IMG/VR virus record: IMGVR_UViG_3300009507_000020
Span: 1-59,620 of that record
DNA: 59,620 nucleotides
Origin: a virus
Reading direction: 5' to 3' (one strand)
Of this stretch, positions 2,656 to 59,620 are shown one piece after another; the first letter of the stretch is position 1, and each line of letters starts with the position of its first letter. Under the pieces are notes generated by a model. The model saw nothing but the letters and a program-made list of their open reading frames with translations. It did not search any database and had not been told where the DNA came from. A program made the translations under genes and the position numbers.

Positions 2656-2656
2656 T

Positions 2657-7853: not shown

Positions 7854-7895
7854 TGCATCTATATAACAGTGACGTGATGATTATAGATTACACTT

Positions 7896-18505: not shown

Positions 18506-18526
18506 AAATATCTAAAAATACCTAAA

Positions 18527-18562: not shown

Positions 18563-18595
18563 TACTATGTAATTTGATGATGAGAGAGAGAATAT

Positions 18596-40130: not shown

Positions 40131-40139
40131 GAGGGTACT

Positions 40140-40331
40140 ATGCGAAGAAGACAATCTCGAAGATCGGACTATATTGAAATGCGGATGGAACAGTTAGCCG
40201 TAGAACGAGACAATCCGAATAACAACGAAATAGACTCTGCATGGTATCAAAGGATAATCCAAGAATTGGACTGGGCACAACAAGCAATGAATAAAACAAC
40301 TCAACGCAATTGTTTTATGGAGACAAATTAA
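40140..40331 (+). CDS. Small helical protein between gp25 and gp6
   Basis: 63 residues, very basic at the N-terminus (MRRRQSRRSDYIEMRMEQLA) and then helical (WYQRIIQELDWAQQAM). Its stop is immediately followed by the gp6 start. I recall a similar short protein between gp25 and gp6 in other T4-like marine phages. The function is unknown; an assembly chaperone is possible. Contains a single Cys. Confidence 0.65.
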   Translation: MRRRQSRRSDYIEMRMEQLAVERDNPNNNEIDSAWYQRIIQELDWAQQAMNKTTQRNCFMETN

Positions 40332-42128
40332 ATGGCAACAACAATCAAGTCAACAGAGTTAGACTTCGACGGAATTAAGAATAATCTCAAGTTATTCCTC
40401 GCACAAAAGGAAGAGTTTGCTGATTACAATTTCGAAGCTTCTGGTGTCTCAAACTTACTGGACGTTCTTGCATACAACACGCATTACAATGCACTGCTTG
40501 CAAACTTTGCATTGAACGAGTCCTTCATATCCACTGCACAGTTGAGATCTTCTTTGGTCGGTCTTGCGAGTTCACTTGGGTACGCGGTATCTTCTCGCAA
40601 CGCATCCTTTGCGGTTCTGAGAATGTATCTGGACTATTCGTCTGACGTATCTCGCCCCGCGTCTATCTCTATGCCTAAAGGTTTTCAGTTCACCACTACC
40701 GTAGACAACAAGTCGTTTACATTTAAGACACGTGACGTGTTGACCGGAACCGATGATGGAAATGGTCTATACTACTTTCAAGTCAATGCAAACACCAATG
40801 TTGCAATATACGAAGGAACTGAAAGAACTAAGAACTTTATTGCTGGCCCCGTTGCAGAGAATGACTCGTACGTTATACCTGAGTCACGATTAGACCTTGA
40901 CACTGTAGAGGTTAGGGTGTATAATGACACTTCGACTTCTTCATATGACGTATATACTAACCTAAACACAACTACTAATATTAGTTCAATATCTAAGATC
41001 TTCGTGATCAAGGAGACTCCTAATGGTTCGTATGAAATTACTTTTTCTAACGGTACTACCTTGGGTCTTTCTCCTCAGTCTGGGAATAGAATCGAGGTCG
41101 TCTATGACATCACCGCAGGGCCAGAGGCAAATGGTGCAAGAACATTCACACCAGACAGTGGCATCAATGGGAAAGAAGTCCAGATTACCACAACAACCAT
41201 CTCATCTGGTGGATCACTAAAAGAAGACTTGGAGTCCATTCGTAAGAATGCACCCTATCAGTATGCTGCACAGAATCGTGCAGTGACCGCAGAAGATTAC
41301 TCTTCGTTGATACTACGTGAATATGGTAACATCGTAACAGACGTTAAAACATGGGGTGGAGAAGACAACGTACCCCCTCAATATGGTACAGTATTTACGT
41401 CACTAGTATTCTCATCTGAAGATGCGACTCTAAAACAGACAACTAAGGATGGTATTCGTTCTCTTTTGAAGGATCTCGCAGTGGTCACTTTTAGTCTTGA
41501 GTTTGTAGACCCTATTGAGACATTCATTGAGGTACAGACCTTCTTCCAGTACAATCAGAACTTGACTGCATTAAATCAATCCTCGGTTCAGAACAACGTC
41601 AAGACAACTATGCAGACTCATTTTGATGCGAACCTTGGTGACTTTGACCAGTCATTCCGTCGTTCTAATCTACTGACAGAGATCGACGACACAGATCCAT
41701 CCGTGTTATCTTCTCGTGCAGAGATAAAGATGCAAAACAGATTTAAACCTGTTACCGGTCAAACCAACTACAAAGTGTACTATCCTACGTCGATTGCTGC
41801 ACCGGATGACACTCAACACATAGTTATCTCAAAGAACTTCAGATATCAAGGTGAGACATGTTACTTACGTAATCGTCTGAGTTCTAATGTACTTGAGTTG
41901 TTCAGTTACACGGCAGGTAAACTCGCGTTGGACAATGTGGGCACATATGATGCTGCGACTGGAATATTGAACCTAGAGAACTTTATTATCTCTTTAACAA
42001 GTGGGGATCATGTTAAAATTGTTGCAACTCCCGCTAATCAAGCTACAATAACGCCACTGCGAAATAACATTCTAAGATATGATGCTGCATCATCATTTGC
42101 GAATGCTATCTTGACAGATTCATTATAA
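40332..42128 (+). CDS. gp6: Baseplate wedge gp6-like
   Basis: 598 residues (T4: 660). STELDFDGIKNNLKLFLAQK then FEASGVSNLLDVLAYNTHYN at the N-terminus, and ESIRKNAPYQYAAQNRAVTA then EDYSSLILREYGNI in the middle, are strong gp6/gpJ-type signatures. gp6 forms the inner ring of the baseplate and holds wedges together. The C-terminus carries strands around KVYYPTSIAAPDD. No unusual feature. Follows the small basic protein with no gap. Confidence 0.92.
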   Translation: MATTIKSTELDFDGIKNNLKLFLAQKEEFADYNFEASGVSNLLDVLAYNTHYNALLANFALNESFISTAQLRSSLVGLASSLGYAVSSRNASFAVLRMYLDYSSDVSRPASISMPKGFQFTTTVDNKSFTFKTRDVLTGTDDGNGLYYFQVNANTNVAIYEGTERTKNFIAGPVAENDSYVIPESRLDLDTVEVRVYNDTSTSSYDVYTNLNTTTNISSISKIFVIKETPNGSYEITFSNGTTLGLSPQSGNRIEVVYDITAGPEANGARTFTPDSGINGKEVQITTTTISSGGSLKEDLESIRKNAPYQYAAQNRAVTAEDYSSLILREYGNIVTDVKTWGGEDNVPPQYGTVFTSLVFSSEDATLKQTTKDGIRSLLKDLAVVTFSLEFVDPIETFIEVQTFFQYNQNLTALNQSSVQNNVKTTMQTHFDANLGDFDQSFRRSNLLTEIDDTDPSVLSSRAEIKMQNRFKPVTGQTNYKVYYPTSIAAPDDTQHIVISKNFRYQGETCYLRNRLSSNVLELFSYTAGKLALDNVGTYDAATGILNLENFIISLTSGDHVKIVATPANQATITPLRNNILRYDAASSFANAILTDSL

Positions 42129-42159: not shown

Positions 42160-43521
42160 ATGACGACCAGTTCAATAACATCCGACGGCAGAAAGGTAAT
42201 GATCAACCAGTTCAAAAATAGTTTGGACGGTGACAGTGATCGATATTACATTGGTTTATCCAGTAGTGATTCTTCGTCTGCGGGATTACATGATCAAATG
42301 ATGACAAGAAATGAAATGCATTTTGTCAAATCAATTTCTGCAAACAGTTTTGTTGTGGAAACAAACGACTGGATTTCGGGTACTTCTTACAATCAGTACG
42401 ATAATAACGACACAAATCGTTCTAACTTCTATGTTGCCAATAGTAATAGTGAAGTTTTTATGGTCATAGAACAAGGAAAGAATAGTGCAGGTGTTGCGAC
42501 TGGATCAACGGTAGAACCTACTGTCGAAATTGCAACTGCATATAACGGAATACAGAATACATTCCCTACCGGTGACGGGTATCTTTGGAGATATTTGTAC
42601 AGGATGTCTGGTGGTGCTGTAAACAATTTTAAAACATCTGAGTTCATGCCTGTCTCTGTTATTAAGGGTACGGCTAGTATTGCAGAAACTATCGAACAGA
42701 AATCTCTACAGACTAACGCCATCAAAGGAGAACTTCTTGGTGTTGCAATCGTAGACGGTGGGTCAGGTTATCAATTTGTTCCACGGGTAGATATTGAAGG
42801 TAATGGTACCGGTGCAGCATTCTCCGCAACCATTGATGACGGTAAGGTTGTTAAAATTGAATTAGATTCGGACAAGTTCAGCAATCTGCTCCACGGTAGT
42901 GGTTATGACTATGCGAAGATTGTTCCATCCGACTTTACAAGATCGGGCAGTGCAGTATTCAGACCAATCATTGCACCACAAGGTGGTATCAATAAAGATC
43001 CGGTGTCGTCTCTGTGTGCAGGTAAGATCATGTTACAGAACACTATTCAGAACGATGAGGGTTCTACTTTACCTCTCGCAGACCCCGCAAATGATTTTAA
43101 ACAGGTCGTTCTGTTAAGTAATATAACGCAACTGGATTCAACTGCAAAGTACACTAGCAACGTAGGAACTGCGATGCACTCATTCACAGTTAGTTCTGGC
43201 AGCGACATTTTTGATGCAGATGAGATCTTCGTTAGTTCGAGCGGAGCAGGTGCTAAGGGTAAGACTTTTTGGCACGACAACTCAAACAACAGACTGTATT
43301 TTATACAGAATGACTCTACGGGGTTTGGAGAGTTCGAAATTAACACAACAATCACTACAGTGAATACTTCAAAAACAAAGTTCATTGATGCAATTGTTGA
43401 ACCAGATTTCGACAGATATTCGGGTGATTTAATGTACATAAATAACCTCAACAACGCTATACTACGATCAGGCACACAAACCGAAGATTTCCGAATCGTA
43501 ATTGATTTGGGAACAAAGTAA
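42160..43521 (+). CDS. Baseplate wedge protein, gp8-like
   Basis: 453 residues. SDRYYIGLSSSDSSSAGLHD, then WISGTSYNQYDNN and PTGDGYLWRYLYRMSG near the N-terminus, and SGDLMYINNLNNAILRSGTQ then TEDFRIVIDLGTK at the end follow the layout of wedge proteins annotated gp8 in T4-like marine phages. In T4, gp8 is a dimer that joins gp7 and gp10 in the wedge. The central third is loosely conserved and may carry extra domains (GSGYQFVPRVDIEGNGTGAA). Assignment is moderate. Confidence 0.6.
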   Translation: MTTSSITSDGRKVMINQFKNSLDGDSDRYYIGLSSSDSSSAGLHDQMMTRNEMHFVKSISANSFVVETNDWISGTSYNQYDNNDTNRSNFYVANSNSEVFMVIEQGKNSAGVATGSTVEPTVEIATAYNGIQNTFPTGDGYLWRYLYRMSGGAVNNFKTSEFMPVSVIKGTASIAETIEQKSLQTNAIKGELLGVAIVDGGSGYQFVPRVDIEGNGTGAAFSATIDDGKVVKIELDSDKFSNLLHGSGYDYAKIVPSDFTRSGSAVFRPIIAPQGGINKDPVSSLCAGKIMLQNTIQNDEGSTLPLADPANDFKQVVLLSNITQLDSTAKYTSNVGTAMHSFTVSSGSDIFDADEIFVSSSGAGAKGKTFWHDNSNNRLYFIQNDSTGFGEFEINTTITTVNTSKTKFIDAIVEPDFDRYSGDLMYINNLNNAILRSGTQTEDFRIVIDLGTK

Positions 43522-43531
43522 AGGGACAAAA

Positions 43532-46500
43532 ATGGCAACTACATTTACATCTGCGACGTTAAGTGGTTCTTATGATGACGATCTCGATCAAGATAAGGGA
43601 TTTCATCAAATACTATTTAACAGTGGTAGGGCACTTCAAGCACGAGAGTTAACTCAACTTCAAAGTCTGATCTATCAAGAGATGGGTCGTTTTGGACGTA
43701 ACATCTTTAAAGAAGGTGCAGCGGTTAGTTCTGGTGGAATGGCAATCAACGCAGCTCACGAGTTTGTCAAGATCGCATCTACTAATGCAGGTTCTGCATT
43801 TGCAAACATTCCTGTCGGTACGGTTTTCAGAGATGACGTTACTGGTCTTGAAGCCAGAGTACTTGAAGTACAACCACGAAACACAGGTTTGGGTTTCACA
43901 TATGATACTTTATATGTCCAATACATCAATACTGATCAATCTGTTGTTGCCGGTCTACCTGATCGTTTCGGTGACAAAGTTACTCTGTTTGATCAGTCCG
44001 GTTCTGGTTACGAGTTAGTAACTGAGACTCCTAATGCATCTGGTCGTGGCGTACGGTTTGACGTTGCAACAGGTGACTTCTTTGTACTAGGTCGATTTGT
44101 AAAAGCAACTACACAAAACCTCATTATAAGTCCATACACCCAATCCTTTACTGGGGCGATTGGATTTAAGGTTGTTCAAGAAGTTATATCTGTATCAGAT
44201 GATGCGTCCTTGTATGATAACAATGGTGGTGCTGTTAATACTGCATCACCCGGCGCAGATCGATATAGAATAAGATTGATTCTATGTGATCATTCAACTA
44301 TCGCAAGCGACGAAACTTTCGTATTTCTTGCCAATGTCGAGAACTCAAAAATTGTTGAGGAAGTCGATGAGGGTGATGCATACAACAAGATTAACGAACT
44401 CATTGCACTACGTACCGAAGAAGAGTCGGGTGACTATATTGTCAACCCATACACGATTCACTTCGAAGATGAGGTTGCAGGTGATTCCTCTTTGGAATTG
44501 ATTGTATCGACCGGTAGTGCATATGTCAATGGTTATCGAGTAGATACTCCATCACCCGTTAAATTAAAAGTCCCACGTCCTCAGACTACAGACAACCGCA
44601 ACAACGACATTGTTCCTATTGAATACGGTAACTATTTTGTTGCAGATTCTGGTCGAGGTCTACCTAATCTGGATATGGCGACAGTCAATCTAAGCACGTC
44701 ACTGACAGATCCAAGTAGTAATACTATCGGTACTGCAAGAATACGTGCGGTAGAAAAAGGATCTACTCTTCCTAACAACGGAACGCACAAGATTTATGTC
44801 TTTGATATCAATGTCGACTCAGATAAAGACCTTACTGATATCAAGTCAATTGGTACTTCCACAACTAACTTATACAAGTTATCCACTGCGGTCAATGGTG
44901 CGGGAACAGACAGTGATGTGAAGTTGTTCAACACACAAGACAACTCCTTGTTGATGCCTTTGACTCAGAATAGACTCCAATCAATATCTGATATCGTTTT
45001 GAAAGTGCAACGACATGTTGGAAGTAAGACAGTTGCGTCAAGTAAGATTGACATCTCTTCTGTATTGGGTGCAGGCGAATCTTTTGTTGACACCAGTAAT
45101 TGGGTTGTTGCGTCTACTACTCGTGGTTTTATTCCACACACAGTCAATGCATCTAATGGTGAGATAACTCTCTCAGACGTTGCTGACGGTGTTGTTCTTG
45201 AAGTGTTGTACTATGTCCAGAAAACTGGTGCAGTACGTACCAAGACTGAATTGACTGGTATCACTGACACGTTGACCAAACAGACAGGATTTGACGTATA
45301 TAACGACGTTGCATACTGTTACTACGAGTTTGATCATGTTGATGTGACAGAACTAGACTCTGTGAGAGCAACTTTCTCTTCTGGTCTTGACATGTTCAAT
45401 AGTTTTATTTTGGACGATGGTCAGAGAGACAACTTCTATCAACGTGCACGTCTGATCCACAATGGGGAAGACAGTGCACCCAACAACTTGTATGTTAACT
45501 ATAAGAGATTGCGCCACAACAACGATGGTGACTTCTTTGCCGCGTCATCTTACAACACGATAAACTATAGGGATATACCTACTCACGTAAATCAGACTGG
45601 TAATGAAGTAAATCTATTTAATTACTTGGACTTCCGTTCTGATAATGACAATGGTACGTTTGCCAATATCAATTTCCTTCCTAAGAACGGTGACAATGTT
45701 ACCGCAGACATTAGTTACTACCTGCCCCGTGCAGATAAGTTATTGTTGACTCAAGAAGGTGAGTTGCAGTTGTTGATGGGTAACCAAGCAGCAGATCCAC
45801 AGTTCAAACCTACGCCAGAAAATGCGTTAGAGTTGTACAAGATAAAAATGAATCCTAATACGTTAAATGGTCAGGATCTATCTTTCGATCCAGTAGAACA
45901 TAGACATTATACTATGAAGGATATATCTAACCTTGAGGATAAGGTTGATGCATTATCAGAATCTACAGCTTTATCTATACTAGAGTTACGTAACCTTTTA
46001 AGTCCTTCTTTGGATAGTGCGGGAGAAGAAAGACTCGCGATTGGTAATCAATCAGACGATCAATCAGATCACGATACGTCAGACACTGAGAACGTAGATT
46101 ATTCTGCGTCACTAGATCCAGATGCCCAGATTATTTACCCTAAAGCGGCAGAAGAGAACATAAGACTTATGTTCAACAATTCATTGTCTACGGGTGTCAC
46201 TAAAATAGGTGACAACATATACTTGAACCATGATAGCGCAGAGTGGGCATTCCAGTCACTTGCATCTGATCATATTAAAGTCAACCCGTTTGGACATGTA
46301 CAGAATACCGGTACTCTCAAGATGTCACCGTCTTCTGACGAATGGAAAGATACTCAGACAAATGCAAACCGTGCAATTGAAGGTTCTGAAAACTTATCCA
46401 CCAATCAAGCGTTTTTATGGAACTCTTGGCAGTGGAACTGGCAGGGTCGTGTCGGTCTTATAACTCGATCGATTAAGTCCGCTGCAATTCGCAAACGATA

Positions 46501-48802
46501 CGCTGGTAGGACTGTCGATCTTGCACTCATTCCATTCATACGTTCACGTAAGGTCTTCTTCCACGCGAAGGGATTGAAACCCAATACTAGATTCACTCCA
46601 TTCTTTGATGGTATGAAAGTATCCGAGTGGTGTCGTGAAGAGTCGACGTTTGTTCGTTGGTCTGATCGTACCGATGGTTGGGGTAACCGTTATGGATGGA
46701 ACATTGCTGCTCACCCACAGGGATCTTCTGATTTAATCTCTGATGCAAACGGTGAGATCATTGGTTCCTACTTCATACCTTCTGTCCGTGCAGTTCGCGA
46801 AAAGGCAATTAAGAAGTGGGGTAAGAAAGCCGGTGCCAAGTACTTCACTCAACGTAGATTCCGTGCAGGTGTAAGAGAGTTCATGTTGCTAGACATTGAC
46901 AAACCCGATTGGGGTGAAGCAGGGTCTAAAGCATTCTGTTACTATGCAGCAATGGGTATCGCGATACACTCTTTGAATATTTGGAAGTATCTCCGTTATC
47001 CAGATTCCCCACATCCTTATTCATGGTTGAGTAAGAGGGCACAGACTCGCCTTACTAAAGAACAGAAGGAAAGACTGGACGCGGTATCTGCGGGTAATGT
47101 TTTGATAACAGAACCTAAAGTATCTGGTCGATTCGGTACCAATCAGATTCCATTAACTACAACAGAACTGCGTAACATTGACAACAAAAACACAATGTCT
47201 ACAGTTTTGTCAGACTACATTGGTGTGGATCTCAATCACCAAGCGTCTACTGAAGTTAATCCTATTGCACCACCTGAAAATCCATTGTCACAGACGTTTT
47301 ATGTCGACAACCCATATGGATTGGTATTGACCAAACTTCAGTTATACTTCCGTTCGAAAGATACGGGTAACCTTCCCGTGTCCATACACATACGTCCAGT
47401 AGAGAATGGTAAACCTTCTCAAAACATTATCGTGCCAGATTCTCATGTATTTAAGAATCCCGGCGATGTTGATGCGATTGGTACTACACCTATTCTCTCT
47501 ACTGTACAGTCTAGACCTACAACTTTTGAGTTTGATGAACCAATTCATCTACAACCTTGGAAGAGATATGCGATTGTAGTATCATCACAGTCAACTGAAT
47601 ATGAGTTGTTCAGTGCAACCGCAGGTAATCCTGTGTTAGGTTCTTCGGTCAAACGTGTAACTACACAACCAATTCCTGGCACTCTGTTCCTACCACAGAA
47701 CGGTACTAACTGGTTGGAGACTAAGAATCAAGACCTCATGTATCGTCTGTACCGTGCGAAGTTTAACCAAGGTGGTGGTTCTTTGATCTTGAACAACGAA
47801 GATCTTGCTCCTCGTGAGTTAGAGGACAATCCAATCTTAACTACTGCATTGTCTAATCGTGTATTTGTTAAACATATGTGTCACGGTCTGCGAGTAGGAG
47901 ATATTGCAAACCTAGACAGTGCGGAAGGATTCTTCGGTAACACTGCGGCAGACTTTAATGGTAACCACACAGTACAAGAAGTTGATGTACATGGTTATAC
48001 CATTGATGTTGACAGTGCAACGTTCTCTGGGTTCGGTGGTGGAGATAAGATTCGGTCTCAAGGTAACGTTGTCTTTACGACCGCAAATCTTATATTAGAG
48101 AATGCAATACCACGATCTACCTCAATTGATACATCCGCGAAGTTTACTTCTGGATCAAACATTAGTGGTGGAGAAACTCGATTCGTGCAAGATGCACAAT
48201 ATGCACGTATCACCCCTGAAGAAAATACTACTTTTGATTCTCCGAAAACAATCTATAATGCTGCATCCGAAACTTTAAACCTAGGTGCGGGTGTGAGATC
48301 TGCATACTTTAAGGTTGATTTCAAGTCTGGAGATGATTATGTTTCACCGATCATCGACCTACAGAGATCTTCTTTGGTTGCTGCGGGTTACTGTATAGAT
48401 GATCCTTCAATAACACCTCACCTATATCCAGTCTCAGAGACTGCACCTACTGGTGGTACTACTGCATCGAAGCACATTACTAAAGTAGTTGTGTTGCCGG
48501 AACCTGCTGTTGGTATTGATGCACGTGGCGATTGTTGGTTACCTGACAGTTCAGACGTAGACTTCTACTATAGAACTGCACAAGCGGACGAAGATATTAC
48601 TCTCCAACCTTGGATACTTCAAGAACCGAGAGAACCTCTTCCACGGAGAAATGACGGTAACTATAACCGTGCAGAGTATCTTGCGGGTGGTCAGAATGGT
48701 ACATTGAAACCATTCAATCAAGCGCAAACTAAATGGGTTATGAAAGCAGGTAGTATTGCCCCCGCAATTAAAAACCTTGCGATATCGTTTTTAGCGCATT
48801 AA
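43532..48802 (+). CDS. Very large DUF4815-type baseplate/fibre protein
   Basis: 1756 residues from ATG 43532; an upstream in-frame ATG at 43502 lies in the previous gene. The N-terminus (DDDLDQDKGFHQILFNSGRA then LQARELTQLQSLIYQEMGRF) is the DUF4815 signature common to large tail proteins of T4-like marine phages. Later parts include long strand-rich modules, KARRTVDLALIPF-like region AGRTVDLALIPFIRSRKVFF and several NPLSQTFYV-type segments. It probably forms a large outer wedge or fibre adapter (gp7/gp10 place). It is directly followed by a small coiled-coil protein and the giant repeat fibre. Confidence 0.75.
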   Translation: MATTFTSATLSGSYDDDLDQDKGFHQILFNSGRALQARELTQLQSLIYQEMGRFGRNIFKEGAAVSSGGMAINAAHEFVKIASTNAGSAFANIPVGTVFRDDVTGLEARVLEVQPRNTGLGFTYDTLYVQYINTDQSVVAGLPDRFGDKVTLFDQSGSGYELVTETPNASGRGVRFDVATGDFFVLGRFVKATTQNLIISPYTQSFTGAIGFKVVQEVISVSDDASLYDNNGGAVNTASPGADRYRIRLILCDHSTIASDETFVFLANVENSKIVEEVDEGDAYNKINELIALRTEEESGDYIVNPYTIHFEDEVAGDSSLELIVSTGSAYVNGYRVDTPSPVKLKVPRPQTTDNRNNDIVPIEYGNYFVADSGRGLPNLDMATVNLSTSLTDPSSNTIGTARIRAVEKGSTLPNNGTHKIYVFDINVDSDKDLTDIKSIGTSTTNLYKLSTAVNGAGTDSDVKLFNTQDNSLLMPLTQNRLQSISDIVLKVQRHVGSKTVASSKIDISSVLGAGESFVDTSNWVVASTTRGFIPHTVNASNGEITLSDVADGVVLEVLYYVQKTGAVRTKTELTGITDTLTKQTGFDVYNDVAYCYYEFDHVDVTELDSVRATFSSGLDMFNSFILDDGQRDNFYQRARLIHNGEDSAPNNLYVNYKRLRHNNDGDFFAASSYNTINYRDIPTHVNQTGNEVNLFNYLDFRSDNDNGTFANINFLPKNGDNVTADISYYLPRADKLLLTQEGELQLLMGNQAADPQFKPTPENALELYKIKMNPNTLNGQDLSFDPVEHRHYTMKDISNLEDKVDALSESTALSILELRNLLSPSLDSAGEERLAIGNQSDDQSDHDTSDTENVDYSASLDPDAQIIYPKAAEENIRLMFNNSLSTGVTKIGDNIYLNHDSAEWAFQSLASDHIKVNPFGHVQNTGTLKMSPSSDEWKDTQTNANRAIEGSENLSTNQAFLWNSWQWNWQGRVGLITRSIKSAAIRKRYAGRTVDLALIPFIRSRKVFFHAKGLKPNTRFTPFFDGMKVSEWCREESTFVRWSDRTDGWGNRYGWNIAAHPQGSSDLISDANGEIIGSYFIPSVRAVREKAIKKWGKKAGAKYFTQRRFRAGVREFMLLDIDKPDWGEAGSKAFCYYAAMGIAIHSLNIWKYLRYPDSPHPYSWLSKRAQTRLTKEQKERLDAVSAGNVLITEPKVSGRFGTNQIPLTTTELRNIDNKNTMSTVLSDYIGVDLNHQASTEVNPIAPPENPLSQTFYVDNPYGLVLTKLQLYFRSKDTGNLPVSIHIRPVENGKPSQNIIVPDSHVFKNPGDVDAIGTTPILSTVQSRPTTFEFDEPIHLQPWKRYAIVVSSQSTEYELFSATAGNPVLGSSVKRVTTQPIPGTLFLPQNGTNWLETKNQDLMYRLYRAKFNQGGGSLILNNEDLAPRELEDNPILTTALSNRVFVKHMCHGLRVGDIANLDSAEGFFGNTAADFNGNHTVQEVDVHGYTIDVDSATFSGFGGGDKIRSQGNVVFTTANLILENAIPRSTSIDTSAKFTSGSNISGGETRFVQDAQYARITPEENTTFDSPKTIYNAASETLNLGAGVRSAYFKVDFKSGDDYVSPIIDLQRSSLVAAGYCIDDPSITPHLYPVSETAPTGGTTASKHITKVVVLPEPAVGIDARGDCWLPDSSDVDFYYRTAQADEDITLQPWILQEPREPLPRRNDGNYNRAEYLAGGQNGTLKPFNQAQTKWVMKAGSIAPAIKNLAISFLAH

Positions 48803-48805: not shown

Positions 48806-49045
48806 GTGGGTATAGATAATTATGTGCCTGTGGAAGGTTACCCACACTTAGTTCGAGATACCGAATCCAACACGATTATTAACACCAATCGTGCTGGTAT
48901 TCGGTCAGCTAAACAAAAACAAAAGATCCGCCGAGAAAAGGAACTACAAGAGATGACACAAAGAAATCGTCTTGATAATCTAGAAAAAGATATATCAGAA
49001 ATCAAGCGTTCTTTGGAATTGTTAATTTCTAATATGCATAAATAG
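48806..49045 (+). CDS. Small coiled-coil protein between wedge and fibre genes
   Basis: 79 residues from a GTG start three bases after the large DUF4815 gene. N-terminus GYPHLVRDTESNTIINTNRA is a conserved opening I recall in T4-like phages; the second half is one charged coiled coil (RLDNLEKDISEIKRSLELLI). Its last codons contain the CATAAATA late motif for the next gene. It may help assemble the fibre attachment site; function is unproven. Confidence 0.65.
   Translation: MGIDNYVPVEGYPHLVRDTESNTIINTNRAGIRSAKQKQKIRREKELQEMTQRNRLDNLEKDISEIKRSLELLISNMHK
49037..49044 (+). promoter_or_regulatory. T4-type late promoter for the giant fibre gene
   Basis: CATAAATA, one base off the late consensus, 41 bases before the ATG at 49085; it overlaps the preceding stop codon. 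Confidence 0.6.
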
Positions 49046-49084: not shown

Positions 49085-52000
49085 ATGTCATACAGACCCC
49101 TAAAAAGTTTATCTGGTGGTGAACTTCAAGAGTTTACTCTTGCAGATGAAGACTCAATCGCCTATCAGGCGGGACTTCACCTTGCGGGTATGGATTCTTC
49201 TGACACGTCTGCATTGTCTAGATACGATCAAGGTAGTGAGTTAGTAGGTACATTCAATAACACCTTCTTTGATGAAACATCCAACGACGACCCTCTGGTT
49301 CTTTCTACAGAGTTTCAGGTTGTATCGACTTCCAATGTCACTAACGGTGTGCATACTATCACTTCTTCGGGTGGTGGTTTACCTCAAACCGTTTATATTG
49401 GTGACACATTAGAACTCAACATTGTACTGAACGCAACTGAAGTCAATGGTGGCGGGTTCGAAACTATTTCTGTTAACGCGACCACTGCGGGTAGCGCAAC
49501 ATTCACCGAGACTATTAATGGAACTCCTGCCCCAACTGTTATTGCGGGTGATGGTTCTATTACATGGCAAGACTTTGTAGATCCCACACTTAGTGGTGAG
49601 TATCGAGGAATCTATCGTTACACGTTGACTTCGACTGGGTCTATCAACATCTCTGTGCAATCAAACACGGTTGACCAAAACAACTCAACTAATGCGGCAG
49701 ATCTAGCGGTAACACTACCCACTATTGAAGTACAAGAGACACGTCCGCCTAGTAGTGTGGAAACTGAAACAGATTTGTTCCAGAGTCCTGCTGCGGATCT
49801 TCCTACTGGTGTTTTAAAAAGAAACCCAATATACTGGCAGACTCAACCACAGGGTCTAAAAGAAATGTCCGACGCAGAGTTGGATATTCTTTGTACTAAG
49901 TTTGCCCGTAAGATTGTAAACAACGAACTTCCTGGCACCTTCCGTCTATCAGATGGTTCGCCTGGATCTGGTTATTTTAAGTTTATTGAAAACATGTTCA
50001 CCGATACGAGAGGTGACGGTACCAATAACTATTATCATATATGGATGAAGGGTTCAAGTACCCCTATTCCCGCTGATCGAAAACCGATGTCCATCTTCCG
50101 TTATAACGGTGTCTTTGCTGGTTTGAAACAAATGTCAGACCCCGAGATACAGTATACCTTTGGTGAACGTGTAAAACAGTTGATCATGACTACTGGTATT
50201 GGTCAGTATCAACTAAGGTCATCATCTCAGGGTACACCAACTTCGCTTGGTACATGGGCAGCACGTGGCACGGCACTTGACACTAGAAGAACATTCATTG
50301 ATGATCCCGGCTATACTGGTCAGGCACCATTTGATACAAATTATACTGGTTCTTACACCCCAGATTACAATACCACTTTCGTTGGTAACTACGAACAGAA
50401 CTATTCATCTGAGTTCGTCGGTAATTACATAGGTTCGTTTATCTCTTTATACACTGGTGACTATGCAGAAGGTTATACCGGTGCGTATGAGAGCGATTTT
50501 GCAAAGAATTACTCCGGTAACTTTGAAAAGACATACGTCGACAATGTCTATTCGGGTAACTTTACACTAGGTTATACTGGTGATTATACGGGTGCAGATG
50601 TAACAGAACAGTTTTCCAACGTATATACTGGTACAGATGTAAGTGAAAACTACTCTTCAATCTATGTTGAAGAAGAATATACAGGTAACTACGGGTCTGA
50701 CTATACAGGTGAATATGAAGGTGATTTTAGTTCTACCTTTCTTGCAAACTATGCAGACCAAGAATACATCTCCGACTACGAAGCCATCTTTACTGGTGAC
50801 TACCAGTCAATATACACCTCACAGTATACTGGAGAGTACGAAGCACTTCTATACGAAACTTCATACAGTGAAGATTTTGTTACAAACTATTTGACTGATT
50901 TCGTTAGAGATTACACCGGTAACTATACTGGTGATTACGAAAGAACAGATGTCACAACCTTTACAGGTGAGTATGCAGGTGACACTCAAGAAACTTACAC
51001 AGGTGATTACACTGGTACGATCGTTGAGTTGTATACCGGTGAATACGTACGTCAGATCTCAGAGACTTACACCGGTGAGTATGGACGTGTTGACGAAGAG
51101 TTGTACACTGGTGATTACGAAGGTGATATCACAGAGACTTATACCGGAGACTATACCCGTGAAACGCCTGTGGTTTATACTGGCGATTACGAACGTGCAG
51201 ATCCTGAAGTCTACACTGGTAACTATAACTCTGCGATAGAAGAACAGTACACCGGAGATTACGAGAGAACTCAAGAAGACAGTTACACTGGATTGTATTC
51301 AGGTGATATACAAGAAGACTACACCGGAGATTACGAGAGAGAAGACGATGAGATCTATGAAGGTCAATACGTTCGTGAGATCCCAGAGAACTACACCGGT
51401 GAATATACTTCAGAAATCATCGAGATTTATAGTGGCAATTACGAGAGAACCCAAGTAGACACTTACACGGGTGATTACGAACGTGCAGATCCTGACACAT
51501 TTACAGGCGAATATGGTCGTATAGACGAGACTAGTTACACCGGTGATTATGAGAGAGCTGACTCAACTTTATTTGCTGGTGCATATGAGGGTGATGTTCT
51601 AGAACCCTACACTGGTGAATACGGTGGTACTATTTTAGAAACATACTCCGGTGATTATACTGGTGAAGTGCCTGAAGAATATATTGGATCTTATATTGGA
51701 TTGAATCAACGCACTTTCTCGGGTAACTATACCGGTATTCCTACAGAACAATACACTGGTATCTATTCTGGTGGTGTTTCTGAAACATATAGTTCTCTAT
51801 ACACTGGTGAGGCACTCGAAGACTACTCTGGAGATTACACAGGTGAGGCACTCGAAGACTACACTGGAGATTATACTGGTGAGATTGCAGAAGACTACAC
51901 CGGTGAGTATGAGTCTCAAATTGCAGAAGACTACACCGGTGATTATGAAGGTATTATTGATGAAACCTATACCGGCAACTATACTGGTGAGATCTCAGAA

Positions 52001-55000
52001 AATTATACTGCACAATATACTGGTGAAATAGAAGAACCGTACATCGGTGAATATACTGGTGCGATCGCAGAAAACTATACTGGCCCTTACGAAGGTATCA
52101 TCATTGAACCTTATACCGGTGAATATACCGGTGAAGTTGCAGAGGGTTACACTGGCGATTATGGTGGTGAAGCACTAGAGACTTACACTGGAGATTATAC
52201 TCGTGTTACTCTTGTCGACTACTCGGGTAACTACGAACGTACAGACGTTGAGAACTATGCCGGTAATTACGAAAGAACCCAAGTAGACACATACACCGGC
52301 GAATATGGTCGTACCACCGAAACCACATATACTGGGGACTACGAAAGAAACCAAGTAGACGTATACACTGGTAACTATGAACGTGTACAAACAGACGGAT
52401 TTACGGGTGACTACGAACGTGTGCAGGTAGACGTATACACAGGTAACTATGTGCGAGATGACGGCACTACGTTCTCTGGTGATTACACAGGTGCGCCTGG
52501 CGAGAATTACTCCGGTGATTATACTGGTGCTCCCGCAGAACCTTACTCAGGTGACTATGAAAGAGCAGATCCAACTAATTTTACTGGTGATTACGGTGGC
52601 GATGTAGTTGAAAACTATACTGGTTCCTATACACGTACTCAAGCAGATTCTTACTCTGGCAATTATACAGGTGCTCCCGCAGAAACTTATACTGGTGACT
52701 ATGAACGTGATCAGACCGATCCATACACCGGTAACTATACAGGTTCAATAGAAGAAGGGTATACCGGAAACTATGATCGGACTGAAATAGAACCATACAC
52801 CGGTGATTACATAGGTGAAGTTTTACAGACCTACACTGGTAACTATAACGTGGGTTATGTGGGTACCTACGTAGGTAACTACACGGGTGTTGCAATAGAA
52901 GAATATACTGGTGATTATACTGGTGCACCCGTAGAGAACTATCAGGGTCAATATGCTGGTACTACGCTAGAAACCTATACTGGTAACTATACTGGCGTTC
53001 CTACCGAACCTTACACTGGTGGATATGCTGGTGATATTATTGAAACTTACACTGGTGATTATACAGGTGCTCCTGCTACTCCTTTCACAGGAAACTATAC
53101 TGGTGCGCCTGGTGAGAACTACTCTGGCGATTATACCGGTATTCCTGTTGAACCTTATACTGGTGGGTATCAAGGTGTTGTTGGTGAGAACTACACAGGT
53201 AACTATACCGGATCCCCCGCAGAGAATTACACTGGTAACTACACTGGTGCTCCCGCAGAGAACTACACTGGTGAATATACAGGTGCGGTTGCAGAAACAT
53301 ACACCGGTGATTATGAAGGTGGTGCGTTAGAAACCTACACCGGTAACTATCAACGTATTCAAGTAGAAACGTATAGTGGTAACTACACACGTATTCAAGC
53401 AGACACTTACACTGGTAACTACACACGTGTTCAAACTGATGCCTACACTGGTAACTACACTCGTGATGCAAGTGAAACATACACTGGTAACTATGCAGGT
53501 GCAGTACAAGAGACTTATACCGGTAATTATGAAGGCGGTGCAGCAGAAACTTATACCGGTGACTACACTGGTGGTGCAGCAGAACCATATTCGGGAAATT
53601 ATACCGGTGTACCCACAGAGAGTTATACTGGCCCTTATACTGGACAGGTAACAGAAAACTACACCGGAAATTATGAAGGTCAGGTCACTGAAAGTTACAG
53701 TGGTGATTATGCGGGTGCAGTACAAGAGACCTATACTGGTGGTTATGAACGTTCTCAAGTAACACCATTTACGGGTAACTATGTAGGCGAAGTACAAGAA
53801 ACGTACACGGGTTCTTACACACGTACAACTAACGAAGCATATACTGGAGATTTCGCTCGAGATGAGTTAGAAGAATATGTTTCTTCCTACACTCGTGTTG
53901 GGGGTGCATCATACATCCAAGCCGGTGGATCATATATTGGGAACATTACAGGGAGTCAGCTCTCAATAAGACACCACGGTGGTTCATCTTGGCATGTAAT
54001 GAAGTCAGGTTCGAGTACGATCACCTATTCTGCATTATATACTGGGACAGTAATACAAAGAATAACCTCTGGTGGCACTGTCGTCACAGAAGTTTCGACC
54101 ACTAGTGGCCCAGTCAATGGAACCTTTACTGCCAACCAAGGCGACAAGATTGTTTCAAATGGGCCAGATTATCCTATTCATATATTCGTTCAGAATTACG
54201 GTCAAGCAGTTGTACCCGAATCATTAGCGGGCGAAGACTTTCAGGGTTATATGAATAGATATGAACCCGGCACTCTCCACTTCTATTCTAAACATGAAGC
54301 TCGTGTAAAGATCTTCAATCCTGGCAATGCGAATGGTCGTGGATACGATGACCAATCCAACCTATTAATGGAGTTTGAGAAGTGGCACTCACTTGGTGCA
54401 GGAGCTCTGCCAGGTTTTGCTCAGAACGGTGACGGTAACAGTCGTATCATTGATGACTCTCCGAAAGGTCAGGATATTGTCTGGGATGTATCTAACCAAG
54501 ACGCAGACTCAAACGCAGACGGTGGTTGGAACGCTTCTCAAGTATCGATTGATTCAACTAAAAAGTATCGTTTTTCTACATGGGTAAGACGTAAAGTGAA
54601 GGGTAATGGTCACTTTTACTTGGGTACCCGTGCATTCAATAGTGGTGGTACTGTCCTTGCCATGCCACGAAGAGTGGCTGGATCTACAACTACAAACCCG
54701 TACTTTGAAGTCAACGGCAACTACAACGAATGGGGTGGGTCTTCAACTGAGTGGTTCCTTGTTGTTGGTCACGTATGGCCCGAAGGATCTGGCACCGGTG
54801 CGGTAGATACTGAATCTGGTATCTACAACACGTCTGGTACAAAAGTTGATACCATTGAACAAGATTACTTATGGCCAACAGGAACAGTAAAAACTTACCA
54901 CCGTGCTTTCTTGTACTACTCGACGGACACCACTACTAATCAACAGTTCTGGGAACCTCGTCTTGACGACACTACTAATCCTAGTTGTCCCTCTGTAGCG

Positions 55001-58000
55001 GACATGATTAGTTATGGTACTTGGGATAGTGTAGTTGAATTGCCTGGCGGTACTAACACTGTTACTTCACACACAATGAGTAGTACGACCGGATTCTTTA
55101 ACTTTCACTCAAACAGACCTATTATTGCTACTTCTGAAGGTACGGGTAGTATTGATTTATCGATGGTACCACCTACTTCTAATGTTGGTGAAAGGATTTA
55201 TCATCGTCGTGCGTACACTGCTGGTAGTAGATCAAATACTGCTGCGAGTGGAATAGACAACGGTAATCAGGTTTCGTTTCACGACTCTTCTCGTATGTCA
55301 CACACTGAGATTGGTGATGGGGCTGGTGGTAATAACTGTTGGGGTTTACCAGAAAGATTTATGTCTAACACATACTCATGGGGTCAAGCACTTCGTGATT
55401 ATGTGATTGTAATGCCATCTACTGGTTATGTTAGGATTTCAAGTTGGAATGGTTCTGCTTGGACAGAACACGTGACACACTTCAGTTCTGGTTCTGCGGA
55501 CAGTCCTACTTATATATTGCGTACTGGTAACAACGGATTCAACACAACCGGTAGCACTGTCGCAGGTAACACCACTAACTTTAACTCGAATACTTTGTGG
55601 AAGTTTGAAGGTACAACCAATTTCTATCTTGCTGTCAACGATCAGAGTGACGACGAAGAAACCTTATTGGGTTGGCAGTCTTCTCTTGAAGACGCTGTTT
55701 ACACTACAAATCAATTCACCGGTAACTATACGCGTGATGCACAAGAGACATACAGCGGTGACTATGCAGGTGGAGTTCAAGAAACCTATACCGGTAACTA
55801 TACCCGTGTTCAAACAAACACATTTGCTGGCAACTATACCGGAGCCCCCGCAGAACCTTACACAGGCACTTATGAAGGTGTGATTACCGAACCTTATACC
55901 GGTAGTTATGCTGGTGCAGTACAAGAAGGTTATACTGGCCCATATACTGGTGCGCCTGGCGAGAACTATGTAGGTTCTTATACAGGTGTAATTGCAGAAA
56001 ACTACGTCGGTGGTTATGATCGTGCTGCACAACAAGGATATACCGGTACATACCAAGGCGCAGTCCAAGAGACTTACACCGGTAACTATGCACGTGTTCA
56101 ACTACAATCATACACAGGTAACTATACTGGCGCGCCTGCTGAAAACTACGTAGGATCATACGCACGTGATCAAGTAACACCATACACAGGTAACTATACT
56201 GGTGCTCCCGCAGAGAACTATGTAGGTAACTATACTGGTGCGCCTGCTGAGAACTATGCAGGTAACTATGCACGTACTCAAGTGACACCATTTACCGGTG
56301 ATTATGCAGGTGATGTACAAGAAACTTATTCAGGTAACTACCAACGTGATCAAACCAATGTTTATTCTGGTGACTATGCGGGTAATCCAGGCGAGAACTA
56401 TGTCGGTTCTTACGGTGGTTCAGTCCAAGAAACCTACACTGGTACATATCAAGGTGCGGTTCAAGAGACATACAGCGGTAACTATGCCGGTGGAGTTCAA
56501 GAAACCTATACCGGTAACTACCAACGTGATCAAACCAATGTTTACACGGGTAACTATGCACGTACTCAAGTGACACCATTTACCGGTGACTATGCACGTG
56601 ATCAACTACAACCATATACTGGTTCTTACGGTGGTGCAGTTCAAGAGACCTATACAGGTAACTACACTGGTGCTCCCGCTGAGAACTATGTGGGATCATA
56701 TTCACGTTCTGCACAAGAAACCTATACCGGTAACTACGCTGGTGCACCCGTAGAAAACTATGTTGGTTCCTATACTCGTGTTCAAGGAACAACATATACC
56801 GGTAACTACACTGGTGCACCCGCAGAAAACTATGTAGGTAGTTATGTCCGTGATGCACAACAAGGATATACTGGTACCTATCAGGGTGTTTCGGGTGAAG
56901 CATACACCGGAGATTATGGTGGTACTGCGTCAGAACTCTTCACCGGATCTTACGTAGGTAGTTATGTTGCTGTCGGAAATAGCACCCCCGCAGGTGGTTT
57001 TGTGGGTGCTGGCGGATATGAAAGTGGAGGTAGTGGTGGTACTAACTATCAAGGCACTTATGCTGGTCTCACTTCAGGTGTTTTTGAAGGGGATCTGCCC
57101 GGTGGGCCAGGCGAACCAGAGATTTACTTGGGGACAAGTAATGTAAACTATACCGGTAGTTATATTGGTGGAGAAACTGGCACAAACACTTACGTTGGCC
57201 CCGCTGTAACATACACCGGAAACTTCGTCGGTGCTGCACAACCCTATAATGCGGCTAATTATGTGAGCAACGATGGGCCACAGTATACAGCTTTTCAACA
57301 CGAGTGGAAGGTGTCGACAGCGGGTGGGTCTAACAACATCTTTATCTATTGGCCAAATGGTCTTTGGGGTACTACAACTGGTACTTTCTCGACTACATCC
57401 ACAACGATTAATGGACAAAGCTTCACTCGTGGTAGTTTTGTGGGTTTCGCTAGTGGTTTTGTTTCTTATTATTTGACCGCGACCAATGTATCGTTTGGTG
57501 CTACTTACGTTGGTGGTGGTGGTACTTACGTCGACAATTTCGTTTCAGGTACCGAGACAACTTACAACAGTGGTGGTGCAACCTACGTAGGTAACTATCA
57601 AGGTGCCTATCAAGGCACTTATGCTGGTGGTTACCAACGTATTCAAGCAACACCTTTCATCGGTGACTACGTACGTGATTCACAACAAGGATATACAGGA
57701 ACGTATCAAGGTGCGGTTCAAGAAACCTATACCGGTAACTATGCAAGAGACCAAGCTGCTGCGTACACGGGTAACTATCAAGGTGATGTACAAGAAACTT
57801 ATGCAGGTAACTATGGACGTACACAACTAGAGAATTATGTCGGTTCTTACGGTGGTGCAGTCCAAGAGACTTATACCGGTAACTATGCACGTGCTCAAGC
57901 AGAAAACTATGTAGGTAGTTACTCTCGTTCTGCACAACAGGCATACACCGGTAACTACGTTGGTGTTCCTCTTGAAACATACTCTGGTGACTATGCAGGT

Positions 58001-59620
58001 AATCCTGGCGAGAACTATACAGGTAACTACACTGGTGCTCCCGCAGAGAACTATGTAGGATCATATGCACGTACACAACTACAACCATACGTAGGGTCAT
58101 ATGTCCGTGATGCACAACAATCTTATACCGGTAGTTACGCTCGTTCTGCACAAGAAACATACACCGGTAATTATGCACGTGTTCAAATACAACCATATAC
58201 AGGTAACTACACAGGTGCACCCGCAGAAAACTATGTTGGTTCCTATTCACGTACACAAATTGATACCTATGCAGGCAACTATGCAGGTGCTCCCGCAGAG
58301 AACTATGCTGGTAACTATACACGTATTGCAGCAGAGACCTATACCGGTAACTATACACGTGATCAAGTCGATACGTACGGCGGTAACTATGCCGGTGGAG
58401 TACAAGAAACATACACGGGTAACTATGCACGTGATCAGGTAGACACTTACACTGGCGATTATGCGGGTTCTCCTGCCGAGAACTATGTAGGTAGTTATGT
58501 CCGTGATGCACAACAAGGATATACTGGATCTTATGTGGGTGTTATTAGTGAAACATACACCGGAAACTATGACCGCGCTGCACAAGAGACTTATACCGGT
58601 AACTACACACGTACTCAAGAAGAGGGTTACACTGGTAGTTACGACCGTACTGAGAATCAATCCTACACGGGTAATTATGTACGTGCTTCACAAGAGACAT
58701 ACGCTGGTAACTATACACGGGAACAAGTAGAATCCTACACGGGTGACTACACAGGTGCACCCGCAGAAAACTATGTTGGTTCATATGCACGTACTCAAGT
58801 AACACCTTATACTGGTACCTATCAGGGAGTTGTTGCAGAAAACTTCACCGGAGACTATACTGGTGCGGTGGACGAAACGTATGTTGGTAACTATGCAGGT
58901 ACTGTTTCTGTTCAGTTTGCTGGTCAGTACGAAGGCGCGGTTCAAGAAAGTTATACAGGATCGTACGAACGTGATGACGCGGCTGCTTACGGTGGTAACT
59001 ATGTAGGTGTCGTTTCAGAGAGTTACACTGGTAGTTATGCCCGTACACAGATTCAAACCTATACTGGTAACTACACACGTATTCAAGCAGAGAATTATGC
59101 GGGTAACTACGAACGAACCCAAGAACAGGGGTTCACTGGTGACTACGAGAGAACTCAGGTTGAAAACTATGTTGGTAACTACCAGAGAACTCAAGCAGAG
59201 AATTATGTAGGTAACTATGTACGTATTCAAGCAGAGAATTATGTAGGTAGTTATTCACGCACCCAAGCAGAGAATTATGTTGGTAACTACACTGCGGACG
59301 CACTAGAAACGTACACTGGTGATTATACTGGTTCTCCTGCCGAGAACTATACTGGTGAATATACTGGTGCACCCGTAGAAAACTACTCAGGGAACTATAC
59401 TGGTGCGCCTGGCGAGAACTATACGGGTAACTATACTCGTGTTGACGGAACTCAGTTTACTGGTAACTATACTCGTATTCAATCAGAGGGTTATACTGGC
59501 AACTATGAACGTGATCAAACCGATGTCTATACCGGTAACTATACTCGTGATCAAGTAGATACCTTTACCGGTAGTTATACACGTGACTCCGGAGAAACAT
59601 TCACTGGTGACTACGCGAGA
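49085..59620 (+). CDS. Giant tyrosine-rich repeat fibre protein, 3' end beyond the window
   Basis: Starting at ATG 49085 the frame stays open for 3512 codons to the last base, with no stop; it is at least 3512 residues long. Residues 1-410 are a phage-fibre-like N-terminus (SLSGGELQEFTLADEDSIAY then QAGLHLAG), an Ig-like strand region and a wedge-contact-like segment (LKEMSDAELDILCTKFARKI). From about 411 follow short repeats, period 12 residues: YTG[ND]Y then about seven variable residues ending Glu-x. Two non-repeat regions (about 1603-2203 and 2626-2834) interrupt them. The first resembles a carbohydrate-binding jelly-roll region (KYRFSTWVRRKVKGNGHFYL). Cysteine is almost absent. It is probably a long tail fibre; attachment and host target are unknown. 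Confidence 0.85.
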   Translation, partial: MSYRPLKSLSGGELQEFTLADEDSIAYQAGLHLAGMDSSDTSALSRYDQGSELVGTFNNTFFDETSNDDPLVLSTEFQVVSTSNVTNGVHTITSSGGGLPQTVYIGDTLELNIVLNATEVNGGGFETISVNATTAGSATFTETINGTPAPTVIAGDGSITWQDFVDPTLSGEYRGIYRYTLTSTGSINISVQSNTVDQNNSTNAADLAVTLPTIEVQETRPPSSVETETDLFQSPAADLPTGVLKRNPIYWQTQPQGLKEMSDAELDILCTKFARKIVNNELPGTFRLSDGSPGSGYFKFIENMFTDTRGDGTNNYYHIWMKGSSTPIPADRKPMSIFRYNGVFAGLKQMSDPEIQYTFGERVKQLIMTTGIGQYQLRSSSQGTPTSLGTWAARGTALDTRRTFIDDPGYTGQAPFDTNYTGSYTPDYNTTFVGNYEQNYSSEFVGNYIGSFISLYTGDYAEGYTGAYESDFAKNYSGNFEKTYVDNVYSGNFTLGYTGDYTGADVTEQFSNVYTGTDVSENYSSIYVEEEYTGNYGSDYTGEYEGDFSSTFLANYADQEYISDYEAIFTGDYQSIYTSQYTGEYEALLYETSYSEDFVTNYLTDFVRDYTGNYTGDYERTDVTTFTGEYAGDTQETYTGDYTGTIVELYTGEYVRQISETYTGEYGRVDEELYTGDYEGDITETYTGDYTRETPVVYTGDYERADPEVYTGNYNSAIEEQYTGDYERTQEDSYTGLYSGDIQEDYTGDYEREDDEIYEGQYVREIPENYTGEYTSEIIEIYSGNYERTQVDTYTGDYERADPDTFTGEYGRIDETSYTGDYERADSTLFAGAYEGDVLEPYTGEYGGTILETYSGDYTGEVPEEYIGSYIGLNQRTFSGNYTGIPTEQYTGIYSGGVSETYSSLYTGEALEDYSGDYTGEALEDYTGDYTGEIAEDYTGEYESQIAEDYTGDYEGIIDETYTGNYTGEISENYTAQYTGEIEEPYIGEYTGAIAENYTGPYEGIIIEPYTGEYTGEVAEGYTGDYGGEALETYTGDYTRVTLVDYSGNYERTDVENYAGNYERTQVDTYTGEYGRTTETTYTGDYERNQVDVYTGNYERVQTDGFTGDYERVQVDVYTGNYVRDDGTTFSGDYTGAPGENYSGDYTGAPAEPYSGDYERADPTNFTGDYGGDVVENYTGSYTRTQADSYSGNYTGAPAETYTGDYERDQTDPYTGNYTGSIEEGYTGNYDRTEIEPYTGDYIGEVLQTYTGNYNVGYVGTYVGNYTGVAIEEYTGDYTGAPVENYQGQYAGTTLETYTGNYTGVPTEPYTGGYAGDIIETYTGDYTGAPATPFTGNYTGAPGENYSGDYTGIPVEPYTGGYQGVVGENYTGNYTGSPAENYTGNYTGAPAENYTGEYTGAVAETYTGDYEGGALETYTGNYQRIQVETYSGNYTRIQADTYTGNYTRVQTDAYTGNYTRDASETYTGNYAGAVQETYTGNYEGGAAETYTGDYTGGAAEPYSGNYTGVPTESYTGPYTGQVTENYTGNYEGQVTESYSGDYAGAVQETYTGGYERSQVTPFTGNYVGEVQETYTGSYTRTTNEAYTGDFARDELEEYVSSYTRVGGASYIQAGGSYIGNITGSQLSIRHHGGSSWHVMKSGSSTITYSALYTGTVIQRITSGGTVVTEVSTTSGPVNGTFTANQGDKIVSNGPDYPIHIFVQNYGQAVVPESLAGEDFQGYMNRYEPGTLHFYSKHEARVKIFNPGNANGRGYDDQSNLLMEFEKWHSLGAGALPGFAQNGDGNSRIIDDSPKGQDIVWDVSNQDADSNADGGWNASQVSIDSTKKYRFSTWVRRKVKGNGHFYLGTRAFNSGGTVLAMPRRVAGSTTTNPYFEVNGNYNEWGGSSTEWFLVVGHVWPEGSGTGAVDTESGIYNTSGTKVDTIEQDYLWPTGTVKTYHRAFLYYSTDTTTNQQFWEPRLDDTTNPSCPSVADMISYGTWDSVVELPGGTNTVTSHTMSSTTGFFNFHSNRPIIATSEGTGSIDLSMVPPTSNVGERIYHRRAYTAGSRSNTAASGIDNGNQVSFHDSSRMSHTEIGDGAGGNNCWGLPERFMSNTYSWGQALRDYVIVMPSTGYVRISSWNGSAWTEHVTHFSSGSADSPTYILRTGNNGFNTTGSTVAGNTTNFNSNTLWKFEGTTNFYLAVNDQSDDEETLLGWQSSLEDAVYTTNQFTGNYTRDAQETYSGDYAGGVQETYTGNYTRVQTNTFAGNYTGAPAEPYTGTYEGVITEPYTGSYAGAVQEGYTGPYTGAPGENYVGSYTGVIAENYVGGYDRAAQQGYTGTYQGAVQETYTGNYARVQLQSYTGNYTGAPAENYVGSYARDQVTPYTGNYTGAPAENYVGNYTGAPAENYAGNYARTQVTPFTGDYAGDVQETYSGNYQRDQTNVYSGDYAGNPGENYVGSYGGSVQETYTGTYQGAVQETYSGNYAGGVQETYTGNYQRDQTNVYTGNYARTQVTPFTGDYARDQLQPYTGSYGGAVQETYTGNYTGAPAENYVGSYSRSAQETYTGNYAGAPVENYVGSYTRVQGTTYTGNYTGAPAENYVGSYVRDAQQGYTGTYQGVSGEAYTGDYGGTASELFTGSYVGSYVAVGNSTPAGGFVGAGGYESGGSGGTNYQGTYAGLTSGVFEGDLPGGPGEPEIYLGTSNVNYTGSYIGGETGTNTYVGPAVTYTGNFVGAAQPYNAANYVSNDGPQYTAFQHEWKVSTAGGSNNIFIYWPNGLWGTTTGTFSTTSTTINGQSFTRGSFVGFASGFVSYYLTATNVSFGATYVGGGGTYVDNFVSGTETTYNSGGATYVGNYQGAYQGTYAGGYQRIQATPFIGDYVRDSQQGYTGTYQGAVQETYTGNYARDQAAAYTGNYQGDVQETYAGNYGRTQLENYVGSYGGAVQETYTGNYARAQAENYVGSYSRSAQQAYTGNYVGVPLETYSGDYAGNPGENYTGNYTGAPAENYVGSYARTQLQPYVGSYVRDAQQSYTGSYARSAQETYTGNYARVQIQPYTGNYTGAPAENYVGSYSRTQIDTYAGNYAGAPAENYAGNYTRIAAETYTGNYTRDQVDTYGGNYAGGVQETYTGNYARDQVDTYTGDYAGSPAENYVGSYVRDAQQGYTGSYVGVISETYTGNYDRAAQETYTGNYTRTQEEGYTGSYDRTENQSYTGNYVRASQETYAGNYTREQVESYTGDYTGAPAENYVGSYARTQVTPYTGTYQGVVAENFTGDYTGAVDETYVGNYAGTVSVQFAGQYEGAVQESYTGSYERDDAAAYGGNYVGVVSESYTGSYARTQIQTYTGNYTRIQAENYAGNYERTQEQGFTGDYERTQVENYVGNYQRTQAENYVGNYVRIQAENYVGSYSRTQAENYVGNYTADALETYTGDYTGSPAENYTGEYTGAPVENYSGNYTGAPGENYTGNYTRVDGTQFTGNYTRIQSEGYTGNYERDQTDVYTGNYTRDQVDTFTGSYTRDSGETFTGDYAR
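50311..53880 (+). repeat. Fibre repeat block 1 (36-bp period)
   Basis: In-frame tandem repeats with unit Y/F-T-G-N/D-Y followed by seven variable residues. By length this block would hold roughly 99 units (length divided by 36, not counted). The early part is rich in Asp and Glu (GDYERADPEVYTGNY), the later part in Asn. The first few units (near 50311-50900) are degenerate. Confidence 0.9.
55712..56956 (+). repeat. Fibre repeat block 2 (36-bp period)
   Basis: Same repeat family resuming after a 600-residue non-repeat region. Units such as YTGNYTGAPAENY and YTGNYQRDQTNVY recur; Asn has replaced most of the Asp of block 1. By length about 35 units. Confidence 0.9.
57581..59620 (+). repeat. Fibre repeat block 3, running off the window
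   Basis: Third block after a Gly-rich region (56957-57580). Units YTGNYARDQVDTY, YVGNYVRIQAENY and similar continue to the last base with no stop codon, so its true length is unknown. At least about 56 units fit by length. Confidence 0.9.

Follow-up and report, generated by a model that had tools for sequence, protein, structure and literature searches.

The long tail fibres of T4-like viruses (gp34/gp37) are encoded among the late baseplate and fibre genes and consist of a conserved N-terminus and a long repetitive shaft, with a fibre assembly gene found nearby. In collagens, and with the mimivirus collagen hydroxylase-glucosyltransferase L230, dedicated enzymes first hydroxylate a repetitive extracellular shaft and then glycosylate it. 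The giant gene described here resembles the T4-like long tail fibre genes in its late baseplate/fibre position, its conserved N-terminus, its repetitive shaft and the adjacent assembly gene. However, both of its ends are conserved and the middle is variable, the product is a single polypeptide that may exceed 4.5 kaa, and a PHROG search at 0.01 with the whole protein and its segments returned no match to any family, tail fibre families included. Its ortholog in phage C48C1 (WJE88074.1 of OQ984149.1, Kyanoviridae) is annotated only as a hypothetical protein. The two share 44% identity in the N-terminal domain (aa 250-406), the same kind of repeat, an island domain, the C-terminal motif and the downstream cassette. 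The C48C1 protein differs in having 4/8/12-residue repeat spacing, a net charge of +4.2 per 100 aa compared to -8.5 here, no N-terminal beta-sandwich insert and several more islands.

The window, i.e., the whole stretch of DNA analysed, corresponds to one entire IMG/VR contig (IMGVR_UViG_3300009507_000020; 59,620 bases), which ends inside the giant gene (Table 1). A frame running without a stop codon from position 49085 to the window end had been claimed by the sequence-only reading and is indeed present. The end of the gene, for which that reading had pointed beyond the window, is provided by a close relative, L005, where the whole gene encodes 4484 aa and ends with the residues ETYTLYVRVD; in another relative, L006, the frame comprises at least 4598 aa up to the end of its contig. 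The longest exact DNA repeat within the open reading frame (ORF) is 47 bp, meaning that the repeat units have diverged in DNA while the protein pattern has been retained. When compared to L005 the arrays display dN/dS ratios of 0.14-0.17. For array 1 the ratio is 0.14 against L005 (84% amino acid identity) and 0.13 against L006 (62%), the latter comparison being near synonymous saturation (dS 1.8). The arrays are under purifying selection, and the gene is real and old. An assembly artefact or a pseudo-ORF is ruled out by the short maximum repeat, the presence of the same frame in other contigs, the complete gene of L005 and the dN/dS values.

Table 1. Coordinates of the giant gene, its parts and its upstream neighbours in the window.
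Feature	Position (nt)	Residues (aa)	Strand	Basis
Baseplate wedge gene, gp6-like	40332-42128		+	Pfam/PHROG matches
Baseplate wedge gene, gp8-like	42160-43521		+	Pfam/PHROG matches
DUF4815/phrog_358 giant structural-type protein	43502-48802		+	Family match; constant upstream neighbour
Small ORF, about 73 aa, helical-looking	48824-49045		+	Read from sequence; GTG start; between DUF4815 gene and giant gene
Giant repeat ORF	49085-59620	3512 codons/aa	+	ATG start, 3' open
N-terminal region, proposed virion anchor	49085-50341	1-419	+	Family-conserved at aa 1-40 and 246-406
Beta-sandwich insert of the window clade	49298-49783	72-233	+	Alignment gap (absent in C48C1 clade); AlphaFold pLDDT mostly 82-94
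Irregular Y-x-G-x-Y repeats	50342-50923	420-613	+	Motif spacing
Repeat array 1	50924-53911	614-1609	+	83 twelve-residue units in register
Island 1	53912-55714	1610-2210	+	Break in repeat motifs
Island 1 domain	54425-55009	1781-1975	+	Common to C48C1 (55%) and Vibrio jumbo phage virion structural proteins (30-36%)
Repeat array 2	55715-56974	2211-2630	+	35 units
Island 2	56975-57583	2631-2833	+	Gly-rich, irregular repeats
Repeat array 3	57584-59620	2834-3512	+	57 units, reaching contig end

The previously suggested T4-like origin is supported by the tail tube cap, baseplate hub and gp25-like genes located further upstream, together with the gp6 and gp8-like genes and a gp32-like protein. The source virus is regarded as a T4-like (Kyanoviridae-like) marine virus infecting bacteria. 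A cyanobacterial host is unsupported, since psbA was not found either in C48C1 or in the 151-kb G013. The DUF4815 gene is found upstream of the repeat gene in 48 of 49 loci of the family. Elsewhere in the window the hub/lysozyme function seems to be split over adjoining genes (35458-38807), with an amidase-type domain in a 632-aa protein. The region 3495-16311 holds a sugar/envelope cluster encoding two radical SAM proteins (one with SPASM), a HAD-nucleotidyltransferase fusion, an NAD-dependent epimerase, a GT25-type protein and an FkbM methyltransferase.

The motif [YF]-x-[GS]-x-[YF] occurs 209 times in the giant frame, in 169 cases exactly 12 residues before the next one, and the strict form [YF]TG[ND]Y occurs 81 times. 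Gly at position 3 and Tyr at position 5 are found in 168 of the 169 units, a regularity for which chance is no issue and which bears out the 12-residue repeat with a nearly fixed core noticed in the sequence-only reading. The repeat had also been estimated to fill about two thirds of the frame; the three in-register arrays, which contain zero register slips, account for 60% of it. The remaining seven residues, previously called variable, are in fact strongly patterned, with G or R at position 7 and mostly E at position 11. The deeper period is four residues and is directly visible in the relatives, whose shared unit is the four-residue module [YF]-x-[G/R]-x. Gly is located at positions 3 and 7 of the 12-residue unit, and the collagen-type Gly at every third residue is not found. 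Across its 996 residues array 1 contains no Lys, Cys, His, Met or Trp. The counterpart of array 3 in L005 extends to 118 units.

Two types of units can be delineated based on position 7, which among 600 distinct 12-mers is R in 300 and G in 299, with almost no exceptions. R-type units have Q or D at position 9; G-type units have V, P or I at this position and E at position 11 in 90% of cases. New here is that each individual unit keeps its type from phage to phage. Over the opening 43 units of array 1, the window and L006 agree in type in 43 of 43 cases, and positions 8, 10 and 12 of the same units are identical in only 18, 11 and 13 of 43 (26-42%). Most R and G codons differ by a single base, and of the 32 conserved R residues in array 1, 18 have changed codon with the residue kept. 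Agreement of unit type with L005 is 98-100%. For arrays 2 and 3 the alignments with L006 are gapped and the agreement goes down to 52-68%, and therefore the conservation is claimed on the basis of array 1 and the L005 comparison. An alignment artefact is rejected, as the first 43 units align with L006 free of gaps. Unit-by-unit conservation indicates that the units are not interchangeable. Its simplest cause is within-unit epistasis between positions 7 and 9, and it is possible that the order of R and G units itself carries meaning.

A search of IMG/VR with a profile built from two sequences of the N-terminal domain revealed 49 loci in addition to phage C48C1. The repeat is carried in the same frame in 48 of them, the exception being the truncated L053. 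Complete genes of the family encode 534 to 4484 aa, and the relatives overall range from 534 to more than 4598 aa. Repeat spacing follows the clades: 12 residues in the window and L005-L008, 8 together with 13 in L009-L015 and L045, and 4 together with 12 and 20 in most others and C48C1. Shaft charge also varies by clade. Acidic shafts, with a net charge of -8.5 to -11.4 per 100 aa, are found in the window and L009/L012 clades, and basic ones (+2.2 to +8.2), whose cations are nearly all Arg with almost no Lys, in the C48C1-type clades. The C-terminal peptide of complete genes is ETYTLYVRVA or a close variant. When IMG/VR was scanned by the C-terminal DNA pattern alone, 72 of the 76 stretches recovered had a repeat ORF and the other four were cut by the stretch boundary. 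In L044 (9689-14996) two tandem repeat genes (frames of 537 and 1232 aa), both ending with ETYTLYVR, precede a single cassette.

The sequence-only reading had called the fibre unusual. This is true in the sense that searches of Pfam, PHROG and PDB sequences gave no match; the protein is not unique, however, as the loci above and C48C1 carry relatives. A literature search yielded no description of this family. The structural protein AOO09386.1 of Synechococcus phage S-RIM2 gives a weak tblastn match to the repeat (32%). It has a different Gly-Asn-Thr repeat, G-N-V-T-G (TGNVTGNLTGN), without the Tyr-Gly unit, and the match was treated as compositional. The match to Enterococcus phage 156, two short pieces of 21% identity in a region whose small genes run in the opposite direction, was likewise taken as compositional. 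Weak Pfam hits such as Trypan_PARP, Invasin_D3 and DUF2510 were far below the cut-off and were ignored. Phage fibres are a known broad kind of protein; the family, its repeat and its cassette are unnamed in the libraries searched.

The conservation of the N-terminal region was judged on a 29-row alignment, and the region has no known relative in Pfam, PHROG or PDB searches. AlphaFold predicts a helix, the clade-specific beta-sandwich and a mixed domain. The fold hits obtained, Ig/cupredoxin-like sandwiches with TM at most 0.21 by query length, most likely match the inserted domain only. In L051 a domain is inserted in the conserved N-terminal region, with a match to FG-GAP repeats at aa 478-507 (PF14312, E 7e-13). 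The shaft is interrupted by two islands. Island 2 has no Pfam or PHROG family match. The domain of island 1 is also present in a Vibrio phage F86 gene, which adjoins long tail fibre genes. The synonymous divergence of island 1 from L005 is 0.20, in contrast to 0.68-1.0 in the flanking arrays, suggesting that island 1 has probably been exchanged recently by recombination. Exchangeable islands are what adhesin modules would be expected to show.

A continuous beta structure, as proposed in the sequence-only reading, is in line with both the modelling and the coupling data. In an AlphaFold model of 15 units (monomer, 41 alignment rows) strands of 10 residues alternate with two-residue breaks that fall on the G-N pair of each 12-residue unit; the best pLDDT of the repeat models is 74 and the others are 54-64, i.e., of low confidence. 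Coupling peaks at alternate residues (i,i+2), with z about 79 for positions 7-9, 50 for 9-11 and 33 for 11-1', which is the mark of an extended strand. The shaft is thus likely to be a beta structure, for which a solenoid, an antiparallel meander and an intertwined trimer are candidate folds. Antiparallel hairpin pairing (k with 19-k) is unsupported by the coupling. A parallel beta-solenoid completing one turn every 12 residues would stack Tyr on Tyr into the Tyr ladder of the sequence-only reading, and it would suit the 12-residue recurrence of the modelled strands. Foldseek matches of the repeat model in the PDB are indeed mainly beta-solenoid proteins, but these are weak (TM at most 0.29), with none at E <= 0.001, and the repeat profile has no match among PDB sequences. 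In addition, the coupling of the same position in neighbouring units is barely above background, and the spacings of 4, 8, 12, 13 and 20 mixed among the relatives fit a fixed 12-residue turn poorly. Such a solenoid seems unlikely; as for a Tyr ladder in general, the modelling and coupling neither reveal nor contradict one.

Downstream of the repeat gene there is a fixed cassette, also new here, consisting of genes for the CC, GT-like, OX-like and LF proteins (approximately 155, 245, 235 and 118 aa, respectively) and followed by tail fibre proteins. As the window stops within the giant gene, the cassette was read in L005, and its order holds in each contig long enough, including L044. The LF protein matches phrog_3304, L-shaped tail fibre assembly (E 1.6e-12). 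The GT-like protein has an invariant DAD (DxD motif), and 16 of 18 members match PF00535, all below the cut-off (best E 0.0011). The OX protein has invariant H128, H189 and R199, the Arg being located ten residues past the second His, and HxN in place of the HxD/E usually carried by 2-oxoglutarate (2OG) enzymes. It has no match in Pfam and is not recognised by PF13640; a C48C1 paralogue weakly matches phrog_61, a 2OG-Fe(II) oxygenase PHROG (E 0.0048). C48C1 has extra OX paralogues at 18267-18920 and 40130-40804, one right after the tail tube gene and one beside a NifU-like gene, and G013 has three OX copies in all. In a reverse test starting from the GT-like family alone, a repeat ORF was found just upstream in 69 of 76 loci and the OX motif downstream in 70 of 77, counts which include near-identical contigs and so are not all independent. 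The seven loci without the upstream repeat ORF are L185, L186, L191, L192, L196, L197 and L199; in four of these an unrelated ORF of approximately 420 aa or shorter takes its place.

The best reading of gene position and architecture, and the part of the earlier fibre claim that stands on them, is a giant baseplate-attached fibre with a beta-rich shaft, side adhesins, a conserved end and four helper genes, which is possibly hydroxylated and glycosylated. We assign it a probability of roughly 0.6. It is suggested by the location of the gene after baseplate genes and next to a fibre assembly gene and tail fibre proteins, by the recurrence of the island 1 domain in Vibrio phage proteins whose genes neighbour those of long tail fibres, and by the conserved N-terminus and the same C-terminal motif in complete genes. 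Against it stand the missing solved homolog, the low AlphaFold confidence, the Foldseek result for the repeat with no match at E <= 0.001, and the failure of both enzymes to reach a family cut-off. We infer that the protein is part of the virion, where the conserved N-terminal domain would anchor it alongside the baseplate protein DUF4815/phrog_358. Its shaft would be built of [YF]-x-[G/R]-x modules, three of which would make YxGx-YxGx-hxEx (G-type) or YxGx-YxRx-QxEx (R-type) in this clade. The globular islands set in the shaft would act as side adhesins and the conserved last strand ETYTLYVRVA would cap the protein or form its tip. The CC protein, perhaps a chaperone, and the LF protein would both serve the fibre. 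More speculatively, the DxD GT-like protein would glycosylate the fibre and the 2OG oxygenase-like OX protein may hydroxylate its residues.

The same fibre could be unmodified, with GT and OX acting on host envelope glycans, other virion proteins or small molecules and being linked to it only by their place in the late fibre operon. The OX paralogues elsewhere in C48C1, the sugar epimerase and UDP-glucose dehydrogenase of this phage, the large sugar gene cluster of the window and the GT loci devoid of a repeat ORF would all agree with that. Yet in all contigs of sufficient length GT and OX lie between the fibre gene and the gene for its assembly, and they were found in none of 50,697 phage records other than C48C1. 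An unmodified fibre is in our opinion a serious possibility, somewhat short of probable. At the other extreme, the fibre could have its own modification machinery, in which a dedicated 2OG oxygenase and glycosyltransferase would act in a collagen-like manner on a shaft of new beta fold, the order of R and G units being a conserved code. This we consider doubtful. The HxN of OX, its paralogues and the seven exceptional GT loci speak against modification, and the likeness to collagen and L230 is an analogy only, there being no Gly-X-Y triplets and two separate enzyme-like genes. Finally, bacterial adhesins, too, include long, acidic repeat proteins that contain globular islands, and the gene might encode a protein that is produced during infection and secreted or displayed on the cell surface, e.g., a superinfection or aggregation adhesin. 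Its place in the baseplate/fibre cluster beside the assembly gene makes this very improbable, as does the result that a 180-aa repeat query retrieved no relative from one genome each of 84,980 bacterial and archaeal species.

Fibres of this family occur in dozens of IMG/VR contigs and are nevertheless unnamed by the libraries searched, although they reach more than 4.5 kaa and have a repeat without a solved-structure match. For a tandem repeat of this length, conservation of R and G unit by unit is unexpected. A concrete case for modified phage fibres is offered by the linked enzyme-like genes, and the shaft may represent a four-residue modular beta material.
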